Part shown: positions 2 through 13,733 of the stretch, one piece after another | How the letters are laid out: every line of letters starts with the position of its first letter | Position numbering within the stretch: the stretch's first letter is position 1 | DNA from: a virus | Direction: 5' to 3' (one strand) | DNA length: 31,518 nt | Virus record (IMG/VR): IMGVR_UViG_3300020421_000089 | Coordinates: 1 to 31,518 of that record | Notes under the pieces: generated by a model | The model's database searches: none | Told to the model about the DNA's origin: nothing | Seen by the model: the letters and a program-made list of their open reading frames with translations, nothing else | Position numbers and translations under genes: made by a program

Positions 2-454
2 GATGAAAAAGAATTAAACAAGTTTGTAATTAATTTTAGAGAAGAGTTTCTTAAAGTAAAACCAGAAATGATTTCTTTTCCTAGGTCTGTCAATGGCCTA
101 TCAAAGTATTTTGATAGTGGTACAACATTTAAAAAGTCAACACCTATGCATATCAAAGGTGCTCTGATTTACAATCACAAAATCAAACAAAACAAACTTA
201 TTAATAAGTATCCTTTGATACAAGAAGGTGATAAGATTAAGTTTGTTTATCTTAAACAACCAAACCCATATACTTCAAATGTAATTACTTACATTACTAA
301 ATTACCTAAAGAGTTTGACATACACAGTTTTGTAGATTACGAATTACAGTTTGAGAAAGTTTTTGTTGAACCTTTAACATTAATATTAAACACAATCAGA
401 TGGAGTATTGATAGAACTTATGGTACTCAAGGTACATTGGAGGATTTCTTTTGA
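2..454 (+). CDS. 43: DNA polymerase, family B (T4 gp43-like), C-terminal fragment
   Basis: The reading frame is open from the window edge, so this is the last 150 residues of a longer protein; the first internal Met is at 68. The segments ISFPRSVNGLSKY, TPMHIKGALIYNH, GDKIKFVYLKQPNP and VDYELQFEKVFVEPL match the thumb and C-terminal part of T4-type replicative polymerases. The protein ends in GTLEDFF, a hydrophobic/acidic tail of the type that docks the polymerase on the gp45 sliding clamp. The polymerase and exonuclease active-site motifs lie outside the window. The codons for the final LEDFF also supply the Shine-Dalgarno (GGAGG, 439-443) and part of the TTG start of the next gene. The family call is confident; only the fragment is visible. 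Confidence 0.93.
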   Translation, partial: DEKELNKFVINFREEFLKVKPEMISFPRSVNGLSKYFDSGTTFKKSTPMHIKGALIYNHKIKQNKLINKYPLIQEGDKIKFVYLKQPNPYTSNVITYITKLPKEFDIHSFVDYELQFEKVFVEPLTLILNTIRWSIDRTYGTQGTLEDFF

Positions 455-1275
455 TAGCTAAATTACTTATAGAACACATAGAACAAAAAACAAATGAACA
501 AGAAGTTGCAGTATTATTATCAGGTGGAGTAGATTCTATATCTGTTGCATTTGCTGCACATCTTGCCTTTAAAAAGATTAGATGTTATAGTTTTCAACTT
601 GATAATAATCCATCATATGATTTTAAAAAGGCAGAAGAGATATGTAAAATAATGAAGTGGCCGTTCGTTGGTGTGAATGTACCAGTTGCCAATTTAGAAG
701 ATGATTTTAAAAGATTATTAAAACACGGATGTCAAAAGAAAACACATTTTGAGTGTGTGTATCCCTTTCTATATGTCTATGAATGGATAAGTGAAAAGTA
801 TGTATTATCTGGTTGGGCAGCAGATGGTTATTATGGTGTAAGTAAAAAGGCTTGTATGCATTTCAAAGAACCTAAATCATTGTTTGACCAATTCAGAAAT
901 GATTATTTTAAAAAAGAAAATCGTGCAGGTTATTTACAACATAAAAAACTTGCAGACAAACATAATAAAGTATTTGTAACACCATACTTAGACAAAGAAG
1001 TTAAAAATTATTTCTATCAATATGATTGGTATCAATTAAATAAACCATATCAAAAACATATGGTCAGAGATGCTTTCAAATCATACTTCAACAGAATAGG
1101 TAAAGTAAAGAATCATTTAAATTTACAATTAGATAGTGGCATAGCAAACCTGTTTGAAACTTTGCTAAATAATAATAAAATAAATTTTAATAAAAGAAAT
1201 CGCATGTTAGAGGTTTACAAAGACTGGAAAGTATGTTACAATGGTGACACTTCGTTGGAGAATTTTTTTGTATAA
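451..1275 (+). CDS. Stand-alone asparagine-synthetase-type PP-loop amidoligase (candidate DNA-base amidation enzyme)
   Basis: A 274-residue protein. The PP-loop LSGGVDS lies at 23-29. LSGWAADGYYGV at 119-130 matches the GEGADELFGGY region of asparagine synthetases. TPYLDKEVKNYF (about 177-188) matches their PFLD motif, and KHMVRDAF (202-209) followed by a KVKNHLNLQ stretch matches their C-terminal ReaF...K region. The N-terminal glutaminase domain of AsnB is absent, so free ammonia or another amine would be the nucleophile. The family adenylates a carboxylate and then forms an amide. A TTG start at 451 is set by GGAGG at 439-443 and a 4-base overlap with the polymerase stop. The C-terminus SLENFFV resembles the polymerase clamp tail LEDFF. 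It overlaps the next gene by 8 bases and heads the methyltransferase/CmoA cassette, so I infer its substrate is a carboxylated DNA base. A tRNA- or small-molecule-directed role is possible. Confidence 0.8.
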   Translation: MIAKLLIEHIEQKTNEQEVAVLLSGGVDSISVAFAAHLAFKKIRCYSFQLDNNPSYDFKKAEEICKIMKWPFVGVNVPVANLEDDFKRLLKHGCQKKTHFECVYPFLYVYEWISEKYVLSGWAADGYYGVSKKACMHFKEPKSLFDQFRNDYFKKENRAGYLQHKKLADKHNKVFVTPYLDKEVKNYFYQYDWYQLNKPYQKHMVRDAFKSYFNRIGKVKNHLNLQLDSGIANLFETLLNNNKINFNKRNRMLEVYKDWKVCYNGDTSLENFFV

Positions 1276-2422
1276 GAAGTATTTTATGAAAGATGTTATT
1301 GAAGCATCTAAAGAAGAAAAGTTTACAGTTATATCTACATTTGCTGGTGGTGGCGGTTCATCAACTGGTTACAGACTTGCAGGTGGTAAAATATTATTAG
1401 TAAATGAATTTGTTGAAGCTGCAAGACAAACATATAAAGATAATTATCCTGATACAGAAATATTACCACAAGATATAAAAGACTTAACAGGTTTTGATTT
1501 TTTAGATACTGCTGGTATAAAACCAGGTGAGTTAGACATATTAGATGGTTCACCTCCTTGTTCTGCATTTAGTATTGCAGGTAAAAGAGATAAAGGCTGG
1601 GACCAAGAGAAAGAATATTCAGATGGTAAGAAAGTAGAAAATATTGAAGACCTATTTCTAGAATATGTTAGAATAGCAAAAGAGATTAAACCAAAAGTTA
1701 TTGTTGCAGAAAATGTAAAAGGTATAACTGTTGGTGAAGCAAAACAGAAACTTAACGAGTTTATAAATGCATTTCAGAATATAGGTTATGATGTTACTTA
1801 CAAAGTTATGAATGCTGCACACTATGGTGTTCCACAAGCAAGAGAAAGAACTATGTTTGTTTGTGTAAGAGAAGATGTTTGTGAGTCTGTTGGTTTAAAT
1901 TTTATGACACTTGGTAATATATTTCCAAAAGAAAATGATGAGATGGTAACATTAAGACACGCACTTGAAGATATAGAAAACGATAAAGATGAAGAGCAAA
2001 TGTTATTAGATTATGTTCAAGCTGGTTTTCAAAAGAAATGGATAGAACTGTTAGAGTTTGACCCACCTAAACATTTAAAACCATCTGACGAAAGATTTAT
2101 TGATATTAATCCTAAAAGGTCTATGTTTAATATGATTAGGCCTTGTCAAGATTTACCTTGTCCTACATTGACACAAAGAGGTCAACAAACTGTAGTGTCT
2201 GGTGTATTTCATCCTATGAAACATAGAAAGTTTACTGTACCAGAACTAAAAAGAATTATGTCACTACCTGAAGATTTTGTAATGAAGTCAGATAAAGAAA
2301 CTGTAGCTAAAAGATTTGACCAAAGTGCTGAGAGAATTGGTCGTATGGTTGCACCTAAAATGATGGCATCACTTGCCGATGCAATTTATGTAAATATATT
2401 GGAGCCTTATAATAATGTATAA
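1268..2422 (+). CDS. C5-cytosine DNA methyltransferase paralogue A (predicted carboxymethyltransferase)
   Basis: A 384-residue C5-cytosine methyltransferase. Visible motifs are motif I FAGGGGSSTG, motif IV GSPPCSAFS with the catalytic Cys98, motif VI AENV, motif VIII QARERTMFV, a short target-recognition stretch around FNMIRPCQDLPCPTLT, motif IX KRIMSLPEDF and motif X ERIGRMVAPKMM. In motif X the usual Asn of GN.V.P is Arg (codon 2342-2344). This is the site where Asn-to-Lys makes other C5 enzymes accept carboxy-SAM. I chose the TTG start at 1268 over ATG 1241 or ATG 1286: GGAG at 1257-1260 is 7 bases upstream, and from TTG the N-terminus aligns residue for residue with paralogue B, placing the catalytic Cys at 98 in both. 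No restriction endonuclease is nearby. Methyl or carboxymethyl transfer cannot be settled from sequence alone. Confidence 0.9.
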   Translation: MYKKYFMKDVIEASKEEKFTVISTFAGGGGSSTGYRLAGGKILLVNEFVEAARQTYKDNYPDTEILPQDIKDLTGFDFLDTAGIKPGELDILDGSPPCSAFSIAGKRDKGWDQEKEYSDGKKVENIEDLFLEYVRIAKEIKPKVIVAENVKGITVGEAKQKLNEFINAFQNIGYDVTYKVMNAAHYGVPQARERTMFVCVREDVCESVGLNFMTLGNIFPKENDEMVTLRHALEDIENDKDEEQMLLDYVQAGFQKKWIELLEFDPPKHLKPSDERFIDINPKRSMFNMIRPCQDLPCPTLTQRGQQTVVSGVFHPMKHRKFTVPELKRIMSLPEDFVMKSDKETVAKRFDQSAERIGRMVAPKMMASLADAIYVNILEPYNNV

Positions 2423-3533
2423 ACCATATTATTTAAAAGATGTAATTGATAGTGAGAAAAGAGAATTGTTTACTGTAATGTCAACTTTTGCTGGTGGCGG
2501 TGGTTCATCAACTGGTTATAGATTGGCTGGTGGTAAGATACTTGCAATAAATGAGTTTGTTGAAGAGGCTAGAAAAACATATAGTGAGAATTATCCTAAT
2601 ACACCTATTATGCCTGATGATATAAAAGAGATTACAGGTAAAGATATATTAGATTTAATTAATTTGAAAGAGGGTGAACTTGATATACTTGATGGTTCAC
2701 CACCTTGTTCTGCATTTTCAGTTGCAGGTGCAATGGTACAAGGTGGTCATTCAAAAGGATTTAATCAGACTAAGAAATATTCAGATGGTAAAAAGATAGA
2801 GAATATAGAAGATTTATTTTTTGAGTATCTAAGAGTTGCAAAAGAAATCAAACCAAAAGTGATAGTGGGTGAGAATGTTGCTGGTTTGACTATGGGTGAA
2901 GCAAAAGAATACTATAACAAAATAACAAATACTTTTGAACAGATAGGTTATGATGTATCATCTAAAGTTTTAGATTCATCTCACTATGGTGTTGCACAAA
3001 CTAGAAAGAGATTAATTTTTATTGCAGTTCGTGAAGATGTAACTGCAGATGTAGGTTTAACATTTATGAATATATCAAGCGTCTTTCCTGAGAAGTTTAC
3101 AGATGCAATGACTTGTGGTGAAGTATTTGAAAACTTAGAGTATGATGAAGAAGAGATAAAAGAACTTACAGAATCATTTGCAAGAGGTTCACATTTTGAA
3201 ACAGCATCAAAGATGCCAAAAGACCCAGAGAAAGTTTTGACTGGTGCAAACTATCATCCTAAAGGCCACCACTTTAATATGAAAAGAATATCAAGACATA
3301 AACCATCACCAACGATTACAGCATCGGGTGGTTGTATTCACTGGTCTGATATGAGAAAATTAGCATTATGTGAAACAAGAAGAATAATGTCTTTACCTGA
3401 AGACTTTAAACTTACAGGTAAATGGAAACAAAAGAGTGAGCGTATGGGTAGAATGGTACCTCCTCTTATGATGAAAGCTATTGCAGAATCAGTATATGAA
3501 AAAGTATTGAAACCATACAAGGAGAAAAAATGA
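2415..3533 (+). CDS. C5-cytosine DNA methyltransferase paralogue B (predicted carboxymethyltransferase)
   Basis: A 372-residue tandem paralogue of the preceding gene, overlapping it by 8 bases. It has motif I FAGGGGSSTG, motif IV GSPPCSAFS (Cys98), motif VI GENV, motif VIII AQTRKRLIFI, a recognition stretch around HFNMKRISRHKPSPTIT, motif IX RRIMSLPEDF and motif X ERMGRMVPPLMM. Motif X again has Arg (residue 346, codon 3450-3452) in place of the family Asn. The N-terminal half is very close to paralogue A. The segment between motifs VIII and IX differs in sequence and length, and B has an insertion (AMVQGGHSKGF) after motif IV. That pattern suggests different target sequences with the same cofactor choice. 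The start ATG 2415 has GGAG at 2401-2404, a rather long spacing. Confidence 0.9.
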   Translation: MYKPYYLKDVIDSEKRELFTVMSTFAGGGGSSTGYRLAGGKILAINEFVEEARKTYSENYPNTPIMPDDIKEITGKDILDLINLKEGELDILDGSPPCSAFSVAGAMVQGGHSKGFNQTKKYSDGKKIENIEDLFFEYLRVAKEIKPKVIVGENVAGLTMGEAKEYYNKITNTFEQIGYDVSSKVLDSSHYGVAQTRKRLIFIAVREDVTADVGLTFMNISSVFPEKFTDAMTCGEVFENLEYDEEEIKELTESFARGSHFETASKMPKDPEKVLTGANYHPKGHHFNMKRISRHKPSPTITASGGCIHWSDMRKLALCETRRIMSLPEDFKLTGKWKQKSERMGRMVPPLMMKAIAESVYEKVLKPYKEKK

Positions 3534-4234
3534 CAAAGTATGATTTTACTTTTGCACACAGAGAAGAAGGATTTGACGAACACATAGAACACTCTATTCG
3601 TGGTTATTCTAATTTATTAGATGATGTTGTTAATCTTTCAAAATATTTTGTAGAACCAGATACCAAAGTTGTTGATGTTGGTTGTTCTACAGGTAAGGTT
3701 ACAAAAAGAATGATAGAATCACATTTAGATATAAACATTGATGATGTGATATATGAAGGTGTTGAACTGGCAAAAGGTTTTGAGAAACCATTAGAAAATA
3801 GAAGAAAAGAATTAAGTAAAGAATACCCAGAGAGTAATGTTAATTTTATAAATGATGATGTAAGATTTTATGAATTTAAGAATTGTTCTCTAGTAACTTC
3901 AATATTCACTTTACAATTTATGCCTATGAAAGATAGGTCTAAATTAATCTCTCAGATTTATGAAGGATTAAATGTTGGTGGTGGATTTATCTTTGCAGAG
4001 AAGTTATTATGTAGTAATGCAAAGATACAAGAAATGATGACTTTCAATTATTATGATTATAAGAGAAAACATTTTGAAGCAAAAGATATAATGGATAAAG
4101 AGAAAACATTAAGACATATGTTAAAACCAAATACTTGGAAACAAATAAAAGATATGATACTTGATGCAGGCTTTCAAGATGTACAATGTTTCTGGAGTAA
4201 TCATATGTTTGTTGGTGCATTGGCGTTAAAATAA
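3530..4234 (+). CDS. cmoA-like: CmoA-like carboxy-S-adenosylmethionine synthase
   Basis: A 234-residue class I SAM-fold protein that aligns along its length with E. coli CmoA. RGYSN (24-28) matches [14 protein letters not shown] (47-55) matches [17 protein letters not shown] (125-132) matches [18 protein letters not shown] (143-152) matches IYQGLNPGGA, FAEK (155-158) matches LSEK, and the ends FVGALALK and FGSLVALK agree. CmoA converts SAM plus prephenate to carboxy-SAM, normally for CmoB in wobble-uridine modification. No cmoB is in the window, and the gene is coupled (ATGA overlap, GGAG at 3521-3524) to two C5-methyltransferases. I therefore infer that its product feeds DNA carboxymethylation. 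The E. coli Arg199 region aligns with MDKEKTL (188-194), where the basic partner is most likely Lys192; this alignment is ambiguous and is the weak point of the call. A plain methyltransferase is the alternative. Confidence 0.85.
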
Positions 4235-4244
4235 AGGAGATAAT

Positions 4245-5291
4245 ATGACAGATTTTTTAAAAGATGTTATAAAAACAACTGGTAATGAATATGCTGCACT
4301 TGTTTCAGAAGGTGTTGAAGCTGGTGATGTAGATACATTTATTGATACTGGTTCTTATATATTTAATGCATTACTATCTGGTTCTATTAATGGTGGATTA
4401 CCTGCAAATAAAATCACTGCAATCGCTGGTGAGAGTGCAACAGGTAAAACATTTTTTGTTATGGGAATGTGTAAAAGATTTCTAGATGAAAATCCAGATG
4501 GTGGTGTTATATATTTTGAGAGTGAAAGTGCAATTACAAAACAAATGGTTATAGATAGAGGTATTGATGCAAATCGTATGGTAATACTTCCTGTAACCAC
4601 AGTACAAGAATTTAGAACACAGGCTATAAAAGTTTTAGATGCATATATAAATCAAGATGCAGCTAGTCGTAAACCTATGTTTCTTGCACTAGATTCACTT
4701 GGTATGTTATCAACAACAAAAGAAGTTGAAGATACAGCTGAGGGTAAAGAAACTAGAGATATGACTAGAGCACAATTACTCAAAGCAGCATTTAGAGTTT
4801 TAACTTTGAAACTCGGTAAAGCAAGAGTACCTATGGTAGTTACTAACCACACATATGATGTAGTTGGTTCTATGTTTCCACAAAAAGAAATGGGTGGTGG
4901 TTCTGGATTAAAATATGCAGCATCATCTATTGTTTATCTTTCAAAGAAAAAAGAAAAAGATGGAACAGAAGTTGTGGGTAATATTATACATTGTAAAAAC
5001 TTTAAATCAAGACTTACAGTTGAAAATAAAATGGTTGATGTAAGATTAACTTATAATAAAGGTCTTGATAGATATTATGGGTTACTTGAACTTGCTGAAA
5101 AGTATAAAGTGTTTAAGAAAGTTGCAACAAGATTTGAGTTACCAGATGGTTCAAAACAATATGGTAAAACTATTTTGAATGACCCAAAGAAATATTTCAC
5201 TCAAGATATTATGGACATTTTAGAAGAGTGTGCTAAGAAGGAGTTTAGATATGGCGGAACAGTTGAAGAACGCGAAACGAGCAGCGAATGA
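4245..5291 (+). CDS. uvsX: UvsX RecA-like recombinase
   Basis: A 348-residue RecA-family strand-exchange ATPase. Walker A GESATGKT is at 62-69. The Walker B-like strand is [12 protein letters not shown], and the DNA-binding loop region lies around NHTYDV and [12 protein letters not shown], as in T4 UvsX. UvsX loads on single-stranded DNA and drives recombination-dependent replication and repair in T4-like phages. A ribosome site, AAGGAG, precedes ATG 4245. The gene opens the replication block and directly follows the cytosine-modification cassette. Length and motifs fit the marine T4-like UvsX group. Confidence 0.95.
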
Positions 5292-5658: not shown

Positions 5659-7009
5659 TGAAAACTTTAATAGAAAGGTAATACCTTTTCTAAAAAAAGG
5701 TTATTTTAAAGAGAGAAGCGAACAGATTCTTTTTGAAGAAATAAATGATTTTGTAGAAAAGTATTCTAACCCACCGACAAAGGAAGCGTTAGAGATTGAG
5801 ATTGACAATAGAAAAGATTTGTCAGATACCGAACATAAACAAACTGTTGAACTATTAAAAACACTAAAACATAATGATGTAGATTTTAAGTGGTTAACAG
5901 ATAGTGTTGAAAAGTTTTGTAAAGATAGAGCAGTATATAATGCTGTTGTAGATAGTATTAGAATTATTGATAACAAAGATAAAGATAATACACCAGAATC
6001 TATACCATCAATATTATCAGATGCTTTATCTGTATCTTTTGATAATCACATTGGACACGATTATATAGAAGAAGCTCAAAAGAGGTATAATTATTATCAT
6101 ACAGTAGAAGATAGAATACCCTTTGACTTAGAATATTTTAATAAAATTACTAAAGGTGGTTTACCGAATAAGACATTAAACATTGCACTTGCTGGTACAG
6201 GTGTTGGTAAATCATTATTTATGTGTCATATGGCTGCATCAACATTGATGCAAGGTAAGAATGTATTGTACATTACACTAGAGATGGCAGAAGAAAAGAT
6301 TGCAGAAAGAATAGATGCAAATCTTATGAATTTGTCTATAGATGATTTACACGAATTACCAAAGAAAATGTTTGATGATAAGATTAATAGTATATCAAAG
6401 AAGACAGTTGGTAAATTAGTAATAAAAGAATATCCAACTGCATCGGCACACAGTGGCCATTTTAAAAGTTTAATCAAAGAACTTGCATTAAAGAAAACAT
6501 TTAAACCTGATGTTATTTTTATTGATTATTTAAATATATGTTCATCATCAAGGTTCAAAGGTAATGCAAGTGTCGGTTCTTATTTTTACATAAAGGCAAT
6601 AGCAGAAGAATTAAGAGGATTAGCAGTTGAGTCTAATGTTCCGATAGTTTCTGCAACACAAACAACAAGAAGTGCATATACTTCTACAGATGTAGGTTTA
6701 GAAGATACTTCAGAAAGTTTTGGTTTACCAGCAACTGCAGATTTAATGTTTGCATTAATATCCACAGAAGAGTTAGAAGATTTAAATCAGATAATGATTA
6801 AACAATTAAAAAACAGATACAACGACCCAACAATGAATAAAAGATTTATTTTAGGAATTGATAGAGCTAAAATGAGATTATATGATGTTGAACAAGTTGC
6901 TCAAAAAGATGTTGTTGACTCAGGTCAAGATGAACCAGTCTTTGATAATACAAGTGTAGGAAATAGATTGGAGAAGTCTTATGAGAAATTCTCGGACCTC
7001 AAAATATAG
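5603..7009 (+). CDS. 41: Replicative DNA helicase, DnaB-like (T4 gp41-like)
   Basis: A 468-residue RecA-fold hexameric helicase. Walker A GTGVGKS is at 198-204, Walker B is PDVIFIDYLNIC, and the helicase motif ISATQTTRSAY follows. The N-terminal domain, about 1-150, is of the DnaB/gp41 type. The start ATG 5603 has AAGGA five bases upstream. The upstream in-frame ATG 5567 lies deep inside the preceding gene and lacks a ribosome site. The helicase unwinds the lagging-strand template and recruits the primase, which here is encoded separately at 24134. The gene end overlaps the next small gene by 29 bases. Confidence 0.95.
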   Translation: MNLENQTIEKTTLSQLIHNENFNRKVIPFLKKGYFKERSEQILFEEINDFVEKYSNPPTKEALEIEIDNRKDLSDTEHKQTVELLKTLKHNDVDFKWLTDSVEKFCKDRAVYNAVVDSIRIIDNKDKDNTPESIPSILSDALSVSFDNHIGHDYIEEAQKRYNYYHTVEDRIPFDLEYFNKITKGGLPNKTLNIALAGTGVGKSLFMCHMAASTLMQGKNVLYITLEMAEEKIAERIDANLMNLSIDDLHELPKKMFDDKINSISKKTVGKLVIKEYPTASAHSGHFKSLIKELALKKTFKPDVIFIDYLNICSSSRFKGNASVGSYFYIKAIAEELRGLAVESNVPIVSATQTTRSAYTSTDVGLEDTSESFGLPATADLMFALISTEELEDLNQIMIKQLKNRYNDPTMNKRFILGIDRAKMRLYDVEQVAQKDVVDSGQDEPVFDNTSVGNRLEKSYEKFSDLKI

Positions 7010-7205
7010 AAAAAATAAAATAAAATATTATGTTGATGTCACTTGGAGAAACAAAGAAGCAGTTTATGTTGTTGTTGAATTACCAACAAATGATGTTGTC
7101 AAAACATTTAAGTTTAAGGAAGACGCTGAAGATATGGCAGAACAATTAATGAAAGTTAAACCTTTTGGTCATCAACCATTACCTAAATTCTTAAAGGAAC
7201 AATAA
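6981..7205 (+). CDS. Small hypothetical protein
   Basis: A 74-residue basic protein starting MRNSRTSKYRKNKIKYYVDV. It is preceded by GGAG at 6970-6973 and overlaps the end of the helicase gene. It has a short beta-rich core (YYVDVTWRNKEAVYVVVEL) followed by a helix with FKEDAEDMAEQL. I recognise no family. Coupling to the helicase and the oxygenase genes (TAATG junction at 7203-7207) makes it a real gene. Its function is not inferable. Confidence 0.75.
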   Translation: MRNSRTSKYRKNKIKYYVDVTWRNKEAVYVVVELPTNDVVKTFKFKEDAEDMAEQLMKVKPFGHQPLPKFLKEQ

Positions 7206-7780
7206 TGAACTATAATGAACGAAAAAGATATAAAGATGCAAAGTTTTTTAAGTTTAGTGAAGAATATCCTGTAATTATGAAAACATATCCTGATTGGAAA
7301 GAAATAAATCCTATTCTTGAAAAATATATCAGAGAACAAGGTGATAGAAAAAATAAAAGAACTAATGTAAAAGCATCAATGACAGAGTGGAATATGCAAG
7401 TTGAAGCTGGCGGTGAACACTTTCAAAAGATATGTGATTTTGCAAGAGAGTTGTCTTTAGAAAATTCACCTGTACAATTTATTCCAGATGTTTATGATTG
7501 TTGGGGTGCAGTTTATAGAAAAGGTGAATTTACTCAATCACACGACCACTGGCCATCTATTTGGAGTTGGTGTTATTATGTAAATGTTTCTTCTAAGTGT
7601 TCACCACTACATTTTAAGAATGCAAGTGGTATTCTTAATGAACCACTTAATGTACAACCAAGTAATGGTTTGATGGTTATATTTCCAGGATGGGTTAAAC
7701 ACGAAGTTAAACCACAAATGTGTGACCACGAAAGAGTTATGATTGCTGGTAATATAAATGCAAGAGGTGCTGCATTTTAA
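7205..7780 (+). CDS. 2OG-Fe(II) oxygenase-like protein, paralogue 1
   Basis: A 191-residue double-stranded beta-helix oxygenase of the small phage type. The iron-site region QSHDHWPS holds His113, Asp114 and His115. FPGWVKHEV supplies His166, and HERVMIAGNI supplies Arg177 for 2-oxoglutarate. The shape (HxH/HD early, FP.W..H late, then R) resembles the putative 2OG-Fe(II) oxygenase family common in marine phages. The substrate is unknown. The gene is followed by a diverged tandem copy with a 1-base overlap (TAATG), so the two may form a heteromer or have split substrates. Confidence 0.8.
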   Translation: MNYNERKRYKDAKFFKFSEEYPVIMKTYPDWKEINPILEKYIREQGDRKNKRTNVKASMTEWNMQVEAGGEHFQKICDFARELSLENSPVQFIPDVYDCWGAVYRKGEFTQSHDHWPSIWSWCYYVNVSSKCSPLHFKNASGILNEPLNVQPSNGLMVIFPGWVKHEVKPQMCDHERVMIAGNINARGAAF

Positions 7781-8313
7781 TGAAAGAAGTTACTTTTACA
7801 AAAAGGGTAAAAATTGTAGAATCAATTTATGATGACCACGAAACATTAAACCCTAAATTAGAAAAGATAATTAGAGAACAAGGTGATAGACAAAATTATC
7901 GTACAGCTTTAAAAGCACATATGACAGAAATGAATATGTTAAAAGAAGATAATAGTGAGCCTTTTCACGAATTATCTGATTACATATACAAAGAATCATT
8001 AAGTATATCTCCTGCAGTTTACAAACCAACTTTTATAGATTGTTGGGGTGGTTTATATAAAGTTGGTCATCACGCTGAAATACACGACCACTGGCCTGCT
8101 TTATATAGTTTTGTGTATTATGTTAATGTGTCTGAAGAGTGTTCACCACTTGTGTTAACAGATTGTGGGTTTCATTATATCAAACCAAAGAATGGTTTAC
8201 TTACAGTATTTCCTGGTTGGATTAAACATTTTGTACCAAAACAAGAAAGTTCACACGAAAGAATAATAGTTTCAGGAAATATATCACCAAAAAACATTTA
8301 CAATTCCACTTGA
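7780..8313 (+). CDS. 2OG-Fe(II) oxygenase-like protein, paralogue 2
   Basis: A 177-residue tandem paralogue of the previous gene. It shares IIREQGDRQN (30-39), IHDHWPALYSFVYYVNVS (101-118), a late FPGWIKHFV with His150 and ERIIVSGNIS with Arg161. The candidate iron ligands are His102, Asp103 and His104 plus His150, all kept, so both copies look catalytically intact. Its stop codon overlaps the -35 element of the downstream promoter. No substrate can be assigned; peptide proline hydroxylation and base or nucleotide oxidation are both possible for small phage oxygenases. Confidence 0.8.
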   Translation: MKEVTFTKRVKIVESIYDDHETLNPKLEKIIREQGDRQNYRTALKAHMTEMNMLKEDNSEPFHELSDYIYKESLSISPAVYKPTFIDCWGGLYKVGHHAEIHDHWPALYSFVYYVNVSEECSPLVLTDCGFHYIKPKNGLLTVFPGWIKHFVPKQESSHERIIVSGNISPKNIYNST

Positions 8314-8364: not shown

Positions 8365-9603
8365 ATGTTAACATTCAAAGAATTCTTATTAGAAGATAAG
8401 GGTGGTAAAAATTTACACCTTGAACATATAGAAGATGAGATACTTAATTATGGTATCACTGGTGGTCGTGCTTCTATAAACTTCATACAATCATTAAGAG
8501 ATATGCTTGCTGGCACATCATCTGGTTCTGTTAATATGACAGTTAAATGGGATGGTGCACCTGCAATCTTTGCTGGCATAGACCCATCAGATGGTCAATT
8601 TTTCGTTGCTAAAAAATCAGTATTTAATGTAAATCCAAAACTTTATAAAAAAGAATCTGAAATAGATGTATCAGGTTCTTTAAAAGAGAAGTTTGCGATT
8701 GCATTACAAGAATTTAAAAAACTTGGAATCAAAGGTGTAATACAAGGCGATTTAATGTTTACATCTGGTGATTTGAAAAAGGAGAAAATAGATGAACAAG
8801 ATTTTATTTCTTTTCAGCCTAATACTATCGTGTATGCTGCACCTATGGGTTCTGAACTTGCTAGACAGTTCACTCAAGCAAAAATTGGAGTCGTATGGCA
8901 CACAACCTATTCGGGTGATAACCTGGCAGATATGAAAGCATCCTTTGGTGTTAATATAAAAGGATTAAAAAAGATAAGTAGTGTATGGATGGATGATGCT
9001 ACTTATAAAGATGTATCTGGTAGAGCAAAGTTCACTAAATCAGAAACAGAAAAAGTAACTTCTGTATTATCTGAGGCCGGTAGTATTTTCAGAAGAATCA
9101 ATTCTTCATTATTAGAAAAATTTATAAGACTACAAAATTCATTCACAGGTAACTTGGCTGGAGCAAGTCTAAAAACTTACAACAATATTTCTGTAAGACA
9201 AGGACAAACAGTAACGAATGTGAGAAAACATGCAGATGGCTATCTGACTCATATTGAAAATCATTTTAAAAAGCTTCAGGACAAAGTTAAAACATCAGGG
9301 GCCAAGGATAAGATTGAAAGAAATAAGAAAGAGTATCTGAGAGAGTTTAAAAAACATATCAGAAACATAGAAAATGTCATTTCTTTCCAAAATGCTCTGG
9401 TGAACGCTAAAAATATAATTGTTAGAAAGTTGAATTCAGTAAGACAGCTTGCTAATACTTTCATACGAACAGATAAAGGTTACAAAGTTACAAACCCAGA
9501 AGGCTATGTCGCTATTGACAAAGAAGGAAAAGCCGTTAAACTAGTTGATAGAATGGAATTTTCATTCAATAACTTTACAGCTAGAAAGGCGTGGGATAAA
9601 TGA
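8365..9603 (+). CDS. Ligase-superfamily-like nucleotidyltransferase with capsid-targeting-like N-terminus
   Basis: A 412-residue protein. The N-terminus MLTFKEFLLE ends in Glu10 like the T4 capsid targeting peptide. Motifs fit covalent nucleotidyltransferases of the DNA/RNA ligase type: motif I KWDG with Lys61, a motif III-like FFVAKKSVF (79-87), a motif IIIa-like GVIQGDLMF (124-132), motif IV EGYVA (379-383) and motif V VKLV (391-394). A long lysine-rich helical insert (about 290-350) separates the first and last motifs. I recall related T4-like phage proteins grouped as a domain of unknown function (DUF6267), which I cannot confirm here. I infer an injected or packaged nucleic-acid end-joining or capping enzyme. 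A degenerate, non-catalytic fold is the alternative. Confidence 0.65.
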   Translation: MLTFKEFLLEDKGGKNLHLEHIEDEILNYGITGGRASINFIQSLRDMLAGTSSGSVNMTVKWDGAPAIFAGIDPSDGQFFVAKKSVFNVNPKLYKKESEIDVSGSLKEKFAIALQEFKKLGIKGVIQGDLMFTSGDLKKEKIDEQDFISFQPNTIVYAAPMGSELARQFTQAKIGVVWHTTYSGDNLADMKASFGVNIKGLKKISSVWMDDATYKDVSGRAKFTKSETEKVTSVLSEAGSIFRRINSSLLEKFIRLQNSFTGNLAGASLKTYNNISVRQGQTVTNVRKHADGYLTHIENHFKKLQDKVKTSGAKDKIERNKKEYLREFKKHIRNIENVISFQNALVNAKNIIVRKLNSVRQLANTFIRTDKGYKVTNPEGYVAIDKEGKAVKLVDRMEFSFNNFTARKAWDK

Positions 9604-10964
9604 TAAACTTTAAGACATATATTAGTGAAGCTACATTAGACATAAAAACTATGAACAAACAACTTGCTGGTATTCAAAGGTCTGCAATATTAGCTAAAGC
9701 AATATTAAGTGGTAATAAGTTAGAAACAAAAAAAGGTAATGTATCGTTAAGTTGGATTAGTGACCAAGATAAAAAAGCATTTGATATGAATGATTTTCAA
9801 AATGCATTTAAAGATGGTAATAATTATAAAAATGTTTTTGTATCACCAGACGGTGATGAGGTTAAATTAACTGATGTTATTAAAACAGCAATGTTTGGTG
9901 GTGGTGCCGGTTCAGGTGGTGGTTCAAAAAATACTGCAAAAGTAGAAAGTGGTCAATGTGTATATTTAGCAGCATTATATAATGGTAGAAAATTTGCAGA
10001 TGTATCTGATAGTTTAGATGATGCAGAGATGTCTGCTGCTGCATCTAAGTATAATATATCAGTTAGTTTAGATGAAGTTGCAACTATGAATGATGATTGG
10101 ATTCATTCTTCAATAATTGTTGCACAAGCTCTCAAACCATTTTTAGGTAATAAAAGTTATGTTTTTCATCATCAATCACCATTTGTTAAAAATTTGTATG
10201 GTGCATATTCTAAGTTAAATAAAAAACTACCTTCACCATTTAGAAAACCAGATAAATGGAACCCAGCTGATATATGGGCTGTAGATGGTGTTGAAAATCA
10301 CGATTGGTATCAATATAATTCATTAGCTGAAATGAATAACGAATTAAAAGAAATGTATGTAAAAAGACAATGTGTTGGCATCTCACTTAAACAAGCTGCA
10401 GGTAATGTTACTTTATTAGAAAAAAATACTGATGGTTTTATTAGAAGACCTATAAGAATGATTGATTATGATATTGGTAGAAAGGGTGTTTTTGATTCAA
10501 AACATTGTACTATATTTGGAACAGAAAACTTTATTATGCCAATGAGAGTTTATGATGGTTTATTTGGTGGGTTTGCAGGCGAAGTAAAACTAAAAAGAGC
10601 ACAGGGTGGTAAAGTAAAAGGAACACTTATTGACCAATTACTGAAAGTTAGACCAAAATTTGATGATAGAGAATTAGCAAAAAATGTACAAAGACCAAGT
10701 CCAAACTTTATTGAAGAATGTTATAATACATATCTTGCTGTTACGAAAAACAAAAGAGAGTTTAAAAACAAAGATGATTTTATAAAACAATTTAAAATCA
10801 ACGCAAAGAAAAATAAATCTTTAGTTTTTAGTAAATGGAAAGCAATGGATATGGTTGGAAGATTAATTAATTCAAGAAATAAAAAACACGAAGTCGTAGA
10901 TGCTTTGGCTGCATATGCTATGTCAGAGTCAAAAGACTCAGGACCATATGTGATAGCGAAATGA
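9600..10964 (+). CDS. Putative internal head protein with possible PD-(D/E)XK-like core
   Basis: A 454-residue protein starting MINFKTYISE, again a capsid-targeting-like decapeptide with Glu10, and coupled to the previous gene by ATGA. The centre carries KWNPADIWAVDG followed, after a helix, by CVGISLKQAAGN. The P-A-D and S-L-K spacing resembles a PD-(D/E)XK nuclease core, but I cannot confirm the fold. A glycine-rich linker (GGGAGSGGGS) at about 100-109 separates an N-terminal part from the rest. Function is unknown. If the nuclease reading is right it could be an injected anti-host nuclease. Confidence 0.6.
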   Translation: MINFKTYISEATLDIKTMNKQLAGIQRSAILAKAILSGNKLETKKGNVSLSWISDQDKKAFDMNDFQNAFKDGNNYKNVFVSPDGDEVKLTDVIKTAMFGGGAGSGGGSKNTAKVESGQCVYLAALYNGRKFADVSDSLDDAEMSAAASKYNISVSLDEVATMNDDWIHSSIIVAQALKPFLGNKSYVFHHQSPFVKNLYGAYSKLNKKLPSPFRKPDKWNPADIWAVDGVENHDWYQYNSLAEMNNELKEMYVKRQCVGISLKQAAGNVTLLEKNTDGFIRRPIRMIDYDIGRKGVFDSKHCTIFGTENFIMPMRVYDGLFGGFAGEVKLKRAQGGKVKGTLIDQLLKVRPKFDDRELAKNVQRPSPNFIEECYNTYLAVTKNKREFKNKDDFIKQFKINAKKNKSLVFSKWKAMDMVGRLINSRNKKHEVVDALAAYAMSESKDSGPYVIAK

Positions 10965-11155
10965 TAAAAGACGGACCAATGAAAGACCATATTAATAATA
11001 GTAAAGAAGGTGTAGTGAAAGCTGAGTACATCACTTATACGAAGAGAGATGGCTATCTTATGAAAGAAACAACTATTAGAAAGTTTCTAGGTAAAGATGG
11101 TAATTATATAGATTCTTATATAACTGAACCTTTAACGGAGGTAAAAGATGATTGA
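10961..11155 (+). CDS. Small hypothetical protein
   Basis: A 64-residue hydrophilic protein wedged between two larger genes with ATGA-type overlaps at both ends. The start is uncertain: ATG 10961 overlaps the upstream stop but has no clear ribosome site, and ATG 10980 would give a product six residues shorter. TTIRKFLGK near the middle faintly recalls the capsid-targeting peptides of its neighbours, but without the terminal Glu. No domain recognised. Confidence 0.6.
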   Translation: MIKDGPMKDHINNSKEGVVKAEYITYTKRDGYLMKETTIRKFLGKDGNYIDSYITEPLTEVKDD

Positions 11156-13733
11156 AGAACCTAGAATACCTAGAAAGAAAGGTCAACCAGCAGGTAGTGA
11201 TAAGCATTCTGATTTATATACAGATGAGAATCCTAAAGGCACTATACACGGATTAGGTTTTAAAGATGTTACGACAGCTAATGCCAGTGTTAAAAAGATT
11301 GAGAATAGTGGTAAAACACATGCACATAAAATACAAGCTGCAATTGCTATGGAACAAAGAGCTAAAGTTATGGGTAAAACTGCAGAAGCTGCAATTTATA
11401 GAAAGTTCATAGAGAAGATGAAAAAGATTACTAAACAAAAACAACAAAATGAAGAAAAGATGGCCTGTCCTGCTGCAACTCAAAATTTAAAGTTGAATAC
11501 TAAGAATAGAGATGCCACGATTAAAAGTTATAATTATGGTCCATTAAATGTTGATGAACCTGGTGATTATTGGAAAGATATTGCTAAGTATTGGAAAACA
11601 ACTGAAACTGCTGCAAAGAAGTCTGTATGTAATAATTGTGTTGCATTTGATGTATCACCAAGAATGTTAGAGTGCATGCCTGGCGAAACATCTGATGAAG
11701 ATGGTCGTTTAGGTTATTGTTGGATGCATCATTTTAAATGTCATTCTGCAAGAGCGTGTCACACTTGGGCAAAAGGTGGACCAATAACCACTGATGAAAA
11801 ATCTTATGATTGGCAAGAAAGAGGCCAGAAAAAAGAATCTGTTACTTTTAGAAAGTTCAATGAAAAAACAGAAGCAGTAGTATTTACATTTGGTAGATTT
11901 AATCCACCAACTACTGGCCACGAAAAATTAATACAAAAAGTAGCAAAAGTTGCGGGTGGTGATGATTTTTATATATTTCCATCTCACTCACAAAATCCAA
12001 AGAAAGACCCATTACCACTTGCTAAAAAAGTTGCATATATGAGAAATATGTTTCCTAGATACAAAAGAAATATTTTAGCTACTAATATGAAAACAGTATT
12101 AGATATTGCAGTTTACTTTCACGAACAAGGTTATAAACAAATTAAAATGGTTGTAGGTTCTGATAGAGTCGCTGAGTTTAATAAGTTATTGACAACATAT
12201 AATGGAAAAGACGCAAGGCACGGGTTTTATAATTTTAACAATATACAAGTATTAAGTGCTGGGGATAGAGACCCAGACGCAGAAGGCGTAACAGGAATGT
12301 CTGCATCAAAAATGAGAGCTGCAGCTTCTTCTAATGATTACGAAAGTTTTAAAAAGGGGTTACCAATGTCATTTAAAAATGGAGAAAAGTTATTTAAAGA
12401 TGTGCGTAAAGGTATGGGTTTAAGAGAAAATTCTACATATTCTGAAGTACAAATAGAAAGAGATTTATATATTAGAGGCGTGTTATATCAGATAGGTGAT
12501 ATAGTTGAAAATATTGATGATGGTACATCTGGTAAAGTTGTTCGTAGAGGAACGAATTATGTACAATATGCTGAAGATGGTAAAGTATATAAAGCATTCT
12601 TGTATCACATAAGAGAGAAAAAAGAAAAAGAAAAACAAGATGTAAAACAAGACAAAGAAATTAAAGATAGAGAAGGTACACAACCTGCTAAGTATTATGC
12701 AAAAGATGCAGAAGGTGACGATATGGCTAAATCAACAAAACAGGCTCGTGCAAGACACTTTGCAAAGTATGGTAAAAAAGATGATGATACTGATAAAAAT
12801 TACAAACAAGCACCTGGTGATGCTAATGCAAAAACTAAACCTTCTAAACATACAAAGAAATTTAAACAAATGTATGGTGAGGATGGTCCGTGTTGGGATA
12901 CTCACAAACAAGTTGGTATGAAAAAGAAAGGTGGTAGAATGGTACCTAATTGTGTGCCAAAAGAAGGAAATATAGAAGAAAAGATTGATGGTCTTGTTAA
13001 GAAAGCAGAGAAGTCAGGTATGCCTTATGGTGTTCTTAAAAAAGTATATGATAGAGGTATGGCTGCTTGGAAAACTGGACATAGACCAGGAACAACACCA
13101 CAACAATGGGCATTTGCTAGAGTTAATAGTTTTGTAACTAAATCAAGTGGAACTTGGGGTGGTGCAGATAAAGACTTGGCAAAACAAGTCAAAGGTAAAA
13201 AAGAAGCTTATGAGATAGGACAAGATTATGCTAAACACACTTTTTCAGTTACACCAGGCCAGAACTATAATCAGGCCCTTAAAAAGAAAGCAAGTAAACG
13301 AAACATCAAAGACTGGTTTGAAAGGGAATCTACTAGAAAAGAGTATCAAGAAAGATATAAAAATGAGTGGGAAGAAAGACTTAAAGAAACTTATGATAGA
13401 ATGTTAAACAAGCTTGAAGATAGTCAAGATAATAAATATATAGAGAAACTTGAGATTGTAGAATCTGAGTATCAAGGTCGTAAAGTTAAGTTAAATGACC
13501 CATTTAGATTACCATCTGGAAGTGGTAAAAAATTTGGTGTTTATGTAAAAAATGAAAAGGGAAATGTCGTTAAAGTAACTTTCGGTGACCCTAATATGGA
13601 TATCAAAAGAGATAGTCCTGAAAGAAGAGCATCGTTTAGAGCCAGACATAATTGTGACAATCCTGGTCCAAAAACAAAAGCACGATATTGGTCTTGTTAT
13701 CAATGGAGAGCTGGAGCAAAGGTTGACAATTAG
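11148..13733 (+). CDS. Mosaic multi-domain protein with HxGH-type nucleotidylyltransferase domain
   Basis: An 861-residue protein made of separable modules. Residues 1-98 are a conserved SDLYTDENPKGTIHGLGF domain. Residues 105-210 are Cys/His-rich (CNNC at 161-164, then CWMHHFKCHSARACHTW) and probably bind metal or a cluster. At 231-242 there is a capsid-targeting-like SVTFRKFNEKTE. Residues 244-425 form a cytidylyl/adenylyltransferase fold with FGRFNPPTTGH (248-258) and SASKMR (385-390). Residues 441-490 are a small beta domain (GDIVENIDDGTSGKVVRRG). Residues 511-577 are a Lys-rich KYYA...STKQARARHF module, then a PCWDTHKQVGMKKKGG module, then 608-690 with VYDRGMAAWKTGHRPGT. Residues 815-861 have RRASFRARHNCDNPG. 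I infer a precursor or packaged multifunctional protein. Shuffled modules like these recur in marine phages, from memory. Confidence 0.7.
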   Translation: MIEEPRIPRKKGQPAGSDKHSDLYTDENPKGTIHGLGFKDVTTANASVKKIENSGKTHAHKIQAAIAMEQRAKVMGKTAEAAIYRKFIEKMKKITKQKQQNEEKMACPAATQNLKLNTKNRDATIKSYNYGPLNVDEPGDYWKDIAKYWKTTETAAKKSVCNNCVAFDVSPRMLECMPGETSDEDGRLGYCWMHHFKCHSARACHTWAKGGPITTDEKSYDWQERGQKKESVTFRKFNEKTEAVVFTFGRFNPPTTGHEKLIQKVAKVAGGDDFYIFPSHSQNPKKDPLPLAKKVAYMRNMFPRYKRNILATNMKTVLDIAVYFHEQGYKQIKMVVGSDRVAEFNKLLTTYNGKDARHGFYNFNNIQVLSAGDRDPDAEGVTGMSASKMRAAASSNDYESFKKGLPMSFKNGEKLFKDVRKGMGLRENSTYSEVQIERDLYIRGVLYQIGDIVENIDDGTSGKVVRRGTNYVQYAEDGKVYKAFLYHIREKKEKEKQDVKQDKEIKDREGTQPAKYYAKDAEGDDMAKSTKQARARHFAKYGKKDDDTDKNYKQAPGDANAKTKPSKHTKKFKQMYGEDGPCWDTHKQVGMKKKGGRMVPNCVPKEGNIEEKIDGLVKKAEKSGMPYGVLKKVYDRGMAAWKTGHRPGTTPQQWAFARVNSFVTKSSGTWGGADKDLAKQVKGKKEAYEIGQDYAKHTFSVTPGQNYNQALKKKASKRNIKDWFERESTRKEYQERYKNEWEERLKETYDRMLNKLEDSQDNKYIEKLEIVESEYQGRKVKLNDPFRLPSGSGKKFGVYVKNEKGNVVKVTFGDPNMDIKRDSPERRASFRARHNCDNPGPKTKARYWSCYQWRAGAKVDN

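Follow-up and report, generated by a model that had tools for sequence, protein, structure and literature searches.

A predicted CmoY-type amide ligase beside two diverged CmoX genes in a T4-like marine phage

The 274-aa open reading frame (ORF) at 451-1275 of a T4-like marine phage fragment very probably encodes a CmoY-type amide ligase that acts on 5-carboxymethylcytosine (5cxmC) in DNA, as judged from homology and gene linkage. The ORF lies at the left end of the window (the whole 31.5-kb virus record analyzed here), in the gene order gp43-CmoY-CmoX1-CmoX2-CmoA-uvsX, with adjacent gene ends overlapping throughout from gp43 to CmoA. It is open, begins with TTG and shares its first 4 nt with the 3′ terminus of gp43, whose stop lies at 454. 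A sequence-only reading of this DNA had placed the ORF in a DNA-modification operon, and the neighbors we found beside it, two C5-cytosine transferases and a CmoA-like protein, are of that kind. The nearest named relatives of its UvsX among 50,697 phage records are those of four Methylophilales phages Melnitz (83%) and Pelagibacter phage HTVC008M (74%). A newly described carboxymethyl/amide DNA hypermodification can be placed, by prediction, in T4-like marine phages close to the Methylophilales/Pelagibacter branch.

The gp43-uvsX cassette and the S-B43 pathway

The cassette and its borders comprise the following features.

2..454, + strand: gp43 DNA polymerase, C-terminal part (phrog_262, E 2.7e-46); left cassette border, truncated by the window edge
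451..1275, + strand: predicted CmoY-type ATP-dependent amide ligase (PF00733, E 1.1e-13; 47.8% to S-B43 CmoY; fold match)
1241..2422, + strand: CmoX1, predicted C5-cytosine transferase with Cx-SAM signature (PF00145, E 1.5e-54; 8yf3, SpCmoX, E 2e-111; SPPC and Arg at the R350 column)
2415..3533, + strand: CmoX2, second, diverged predicted CmoX (PF00145, E 1.9e-55; 8yf3, E 2.2e-151; SPPC and Arg at the R350 column)
3530..4234, + strand: CmoA, predicted Cx-SAM synthase of phage type (61% to S-B43 CmoA; phrog_4752, E 1.7e-61; E. coli CmoA 4gek, E 7.2e-27)
4245..5291, + strand: uvsX recombinase (phrog_97 UvsX, E 1.3e-94); right cassette border

CmoX1 has an alternative in-frame ATG start at 1286.

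The first account of the CmoA-CmoX-CmoY system dates from late 2025 and concerns the cyanobacterial virus Synechococcus phage S-B43 (Yang et al., Nat Commun 2025;17:281, PMC12783734). According to the main text of that paper, S-B43 CmoA generates carboxy-SAM (Cx-SAM), CmoX transfers the carboxymethyl group via Arg350 onto cytosine C5 in GC motifs of DNA to give 5cxmC, and the AsnB-like CmoY was assayed and ligates glycine, not ammonia, to 5cxmC; the glycyl product is present in native S-B43 phage DNA. The same text assigns ammonia to another CmoY cluster, one retaining a glutaminase domain, reports clusters with differing pocket residues, and gives a CmoY SSN threshold of 1e-56, about 30% identity. 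The pelagiphage system with a thymine pyrophosphorylase outlined in mSystems (PMC9599517) appears to be a different system.

The window and S-B43 have in common the same three enzyme families encoded by adjoining genes, a CmoY without glutaminase, and a CmoX with SPPC and Arg350. They differ in layout: the window carries two diverged CmoX genes in the order CmoY-CmoX1-CmoX2-CmoA between gp43 and uvsX, whereas S-B43 has the order CmoA-CmoY-CmoX, 3′ of the primase-helicase. Window CmoY is 47.8% identical to S-B43 CmoY across 274/274 residues (E 7e-73), a value inside the SSN threshold of 1e-56 in the main text of PMC12783734, with the two E-values coming from different databases. Window CmoA shares 61% identity with its S-B43 counterpart over 99%, and identity to SpCmoX (8yf3) is 62.6% for CmoX2 and 53.8% for CmoX1.

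Following these homologies, CmoA (3530-4234) would convert SAM and prephenate to carboxy-SAM, and CmoX1 and CmoX2 (1241-2422 and 2415-3533) would place the carboxymethyl group on cytosine C5 in finished DNA. In the last of the three enzymatic steps, the PP-loop domain of CmoY (451-1275) would adenylate the new carboxylate with ATP, and the enzyme would couple the activated carboxylate with a small amine (glycine being the likeliest), yielding 5-glycylcarboxymethylcytosine. The window enzyme would need no glutaminase because the proposed amine is a free amino acid. Every step of this chemistry has been demonstrated in published work on the S-B43 homologs; in the window phage, we infer all of it from homology and gene linkage. 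The four proteins of the window are likewise presumed to be active, with a putative role in escaping restriction.

To follow the cassette in relatives, we scanned viral contigs with a profile and kept the best 80 of 501 CmoY relatives. With an earlier search these gave 84 loci, and dropping 9 contained or near-identical ones left 75, a set of nearest relatives rather than a random sample. Within this set, drawn from the best 80 of 501 plus the earlier search, CmoX is found near CmoY in 65/75 deduplicated loci and CmoA in 52/75. The sequence-only reading had named loss of the cassette link in homologous genomes as an outcome that would speak against it, and this did not occur: in the same set, CmoX lies beside CmoY in 59 of the 61 loci whose downstream sequence reaches at least 1 kb, and CmoA does so in 35 of the 36 where it reaches at least 3 kb. 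The exceptions despite sufficient room are L021 (both CmoX and CmoA) and L022 (CmoX). Upstream, gp43 precedes CmoY in 40 of the 57 loci of this best-80-plus-earlier-search set that have at least 1 kb on that side.

The genes also occur together in other genomic surroundings, adjoining or nearly so for all three in phage PaBG and Staphylococcus phage F1; CmoY relatives of PaBG were found at six loci in viral contigs, which played no further part in the analysis. In Dickeya AD1 and Erwinia Y3, CmoA is close to CmoY and a CmoX-like frame lies about 15-18 kb away, and Salmonella phage Sen-NF has a ligase relative with no CmoX match in its 108.5-kb record.

Window CmoA scores 119.8 bits against the bacterial CmoA equivalog TIGR00740, below the cut-off of 193.3. 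At the column of E. coli CmoA that we take to be Arg199, Glu is present in the window, in S-B43 CmoA and in 137/141 CmoA ORFs. We considered whether this residue marks a phage CmoA that has lost Cx-SAM synthesis and rejected the idea: the assayed, active S-B43 CmoA has Glu too, so the residue does not count against window CmoA.

The ligase and its amine

The protein encoded by 451-1275 scores 52.1 bits with Pfam Asn_synthase (PF00733; cut-off 21, E 1.1e-13), values that argue against a chance match. An AlphaFold2 model built from 52 aligned sequences has a mean pLDDT of 92. By VIA-align, model residues 1-270 superpose on residues 225-494 of beta-lactam synthetase 1mc1 (Z 23.3, rmsd 3.2, 255 aligned) and on residues 210-510 of E. 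coli AsnB 1ct9 (Z 20.2, rmsd 3.1, 258 aligned); the model also matches human asparagine synthetase (Z 22.9, rmsd 3.0, 256 aligned) and carbapenam synthetase (Z 22.1, rmsd 3.5, 253 aligned), in both cases over the synthetase half only. Because residues 1-270 align to synthetase halves only, the N-terminal glutaminase is absent and the remainder is complete. The Pfam match and the fold alignment together bear out the earlier proposal of an asparagine synthetase domain without glutaminase. AsnB, beta-lactam synthetase and carbapenam synthetase share with window CmoY the synthetase fold and PP-loop, and adenylation chemistry is expected; they differ in having an N-terminal glutaminase or glutaminase-like domain without counterpart in window CmoY, at 12-19% identity and with a different substrate.

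We aligned 58 CmoY sequences; besides those of the window and S-B43, they come from jumbo phages and metagenomic contigs. Fifteen columns are invariant: G26, D57, A61, K97, E101, C102, G121, D125, R149, N197, P199, K202, H222, Q226 and F235. The sequence-only reading had also stated that the PP-loop and AsnB-type C-terminal motifs are kept. The PP-loop is, as SGGVDS at residues 24-29; as for the C-terminal motifs, NKPxQK has its Lys (K202) in 58/58 sequences, and the column of Lys449, which we take to be the catalytic Lys of AsnB, falls past the stretch aligned for window CmoY. The gene is under purifying selection, with dN/dS values of 0.10, 0.10, 0.11 and 0.26 against four relatives.

Position 122 is Trp in window CmoY and Ile in S-B43 CmoY. 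The column aligns with the Glu of SGEGSD in AsnB and the Tyr of TGYGAD in beta-lactam synthetase, presumably Glu348 and Tyr348, respectively. Given this substitution, glycine is still most likely, yet the amine may differ. We regard glycine as probably the amine of window CmoY; this choice, together with the idea that the two CmoX proteins have separate target sequences, is the least certain part of the proposal.

The same enzyme might act on the same DNA substrate with another alpha-amino acid or small amine because its pocket differs from that of S-B43 CmoY, and the Trp at position 122, found in 48/58 aligned sequences, points in that direction, as do the clusters with other pocket residues reported in the main text of PMC12783734. 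Every invariant residue is, however, common to S-B43 CmoY, and the E-value of 7e-73 falls inside the glycine-cluster SSN threshold of 1e-56 of that text, database sizes differing; we hold a different amine to be unlikely. The sequence-only reading instead supplied free ammonia, which would give 5-carbamoylmethylcytosine. AsnB-like ligases without a glutaminase can use ammonia, and the product would be chemically the simplest amide. We judge this improbable, since the homolog that is 47.8% identical along its full length uses glycine and the ammonia-type cluster retains a glutaminase domain that window CmoY lacks (PMC12783734, main text). The amidation of 5cxmC itself, as that reading proposed, matches the assayed S-B43 CmoY; the simple carbamoyl product, modeled on tRNA ncm5U, does not agree with the use of glycine by this homolog. 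The guess is close to the result in the main text of PMC12783734, with ammonia standing in for glycine, and the chemistry is no longer new.

Other identities for the protein fare worse. An auxiliary gene for a true asparagine synthetase, or for another metabolic ligase working on a free small molecule, would explain why Asn_synthase is the best Pfam family, but the protein scores 39.6 bits against NCBIfam TIGR01536 (cut-off 267.1), the glutaminase domain is absent, and relatives show tight linkage to CmoX and CmoA; this reading is very improbable. Still less probable is a QueC-like enzyme of the 7-deazaguanine pathway: the PF06508 match of 24 bits is barely above its cut-off of 22 and covers only residues 20-77, which are the shared PP-loop, whereas NCBIfam QueC TIGR00364 gives 24.4 bits against a cut-off of 150.3 and the fold matches beta-lactam synthetase and AsnB along its full length. 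We rejected both identities on the NCBIfam cut-offs and fold coverage.

Two CmoX lineages

Both CmoX copies of the window have SPPC and an Arg at the R350 column. Because both retain this Arg, we rejected the possibility that the second transferase is an ordinary methylase. Counting CmoX-like ORFs of deduplicated loci that are 300 aa or longer, SPPC is present in 208/209 and the Arg in 207/209; the exceptions to the signature are L007 (GSPC, Gly) and L198 (a gap at the Arg column, at a contig end). L007 is Staphylococcus phage F1, in which the C5 transferase with Gly at the R350 column (6774-7778) lies beside CmoA and a CmoY relative.

CmoX1 and CmoX2 are 53.8% identical overall and 33% identical in the stretch matching SpCmoX 214-320, which we take as the recognition domain. 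In that stretch, identity to S-B43 CmoX is 45% for CmoX2 and 31% for CmoX1, and CmoX2 is the more S-B43-like copy. A FastTree phylogeny of 209 CmoX sequences puts the two window copies in separate clades (support 0.999 and 0.996); as they are diverged and fall in separate clades, they do not represent a recent duplication. Two full CmoX genes are present in 33 deduplicated loci, the window included. CmoX1 and CmoX2 presumably recognize different sequence contexts. The main text of PMC12783734 makes no mention of tandem or duplicated CmoX.

In L016, CmoY is 86% identical to that of the window, but the second CmoX (8542-9708) is only about 64% identical to window CmoX2, and the second CmoX slot seems to have been replaced there. 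Four further records (L113, L119, L129 and L132) have a CmoX with the Arg, with neither CmoA nor CmoY found in their 12-23 kb; in L119, this CmoX follows the genes for SbcD, SbcC and a peptide deformylase.

Cassettes without CmoY and the gp43-uvsX site

Five loci (L095, L165, L204, L207 and L209) have the arrangement gp43-CmoX-CmoX-CmoA-uvsX with no CmoY in the cassette; the second CmoX of L095 is split across two frames. CmoA was found in all five records, and CmoY was not found in them (19.8, 12.3, 9.5, 11.5 and 123.7 kb, respectively). A repeated CmoY search of four of these loci (all but L207) found it in 0/4 and recovered the positive controls in 4/4. The CmoY-less cassettes therefore suggest that the ligase step is dispensable in some lineages. 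Ligase loss would be expected if 5cxmC itself is the finished mark in those lineages.

The varying parts of the system are thus the two CmoX types, the presence or absence of the ligase, and one pocket residue. These natural variants, including relatives that apparently stop at 5cxmC, offer a direct way to test sequence specificity and the choice of amine.

At the same gp43-uvsX site, Methylophilales phage Melnitz carries a module that likewise starts with a C5-cytosine transferase. At the R350 column this transferase carries Leu in place of Arg, and a Tet_JBP oxygenase comes next (a TET-type module). The Melnitz segment between gp43 and uvsX (L249:154-4527) also holds a P-loop protein and a 427-aa protein without a Pfam or PHROG match. 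No Methylophilales record is among the 58 records with a CmoY match, and HTVC008M has a DruA-like gene at the gp43-uvsX site. The Melnitz arrangement suggests that the site exchanges cytosine-modification modules. Diverged tandem CmoX genes, CmoY-less sister cassettes and a TET-type module at the polymerase-uvsX site were not found in the main text of PMC12783734.

A joint reading, which we put forward as speculative and rather doubtful, is that the two CmoX lineages write 5cxmC in two sequence contexts and that a CmoY with a remodeled pocket (Trp122) caps both with a non-glycine amine, giving a cytosine hypermodification not yet observed, with this module and TET-type modules competing for the gp43-uvsX site.

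Elsewhere in the window, two adjoining, related 2OG-Fe(II) oxygenase genes (7205-7780 and 7780-8313; PF13759, phrog_81) lie 3′ of a helicase gene, and 11148-13733 encodes a protein of 861 aa that contains DUF5824 and a stretch resembling a cytidylyltransferase (PF01467, 21.7 bits).
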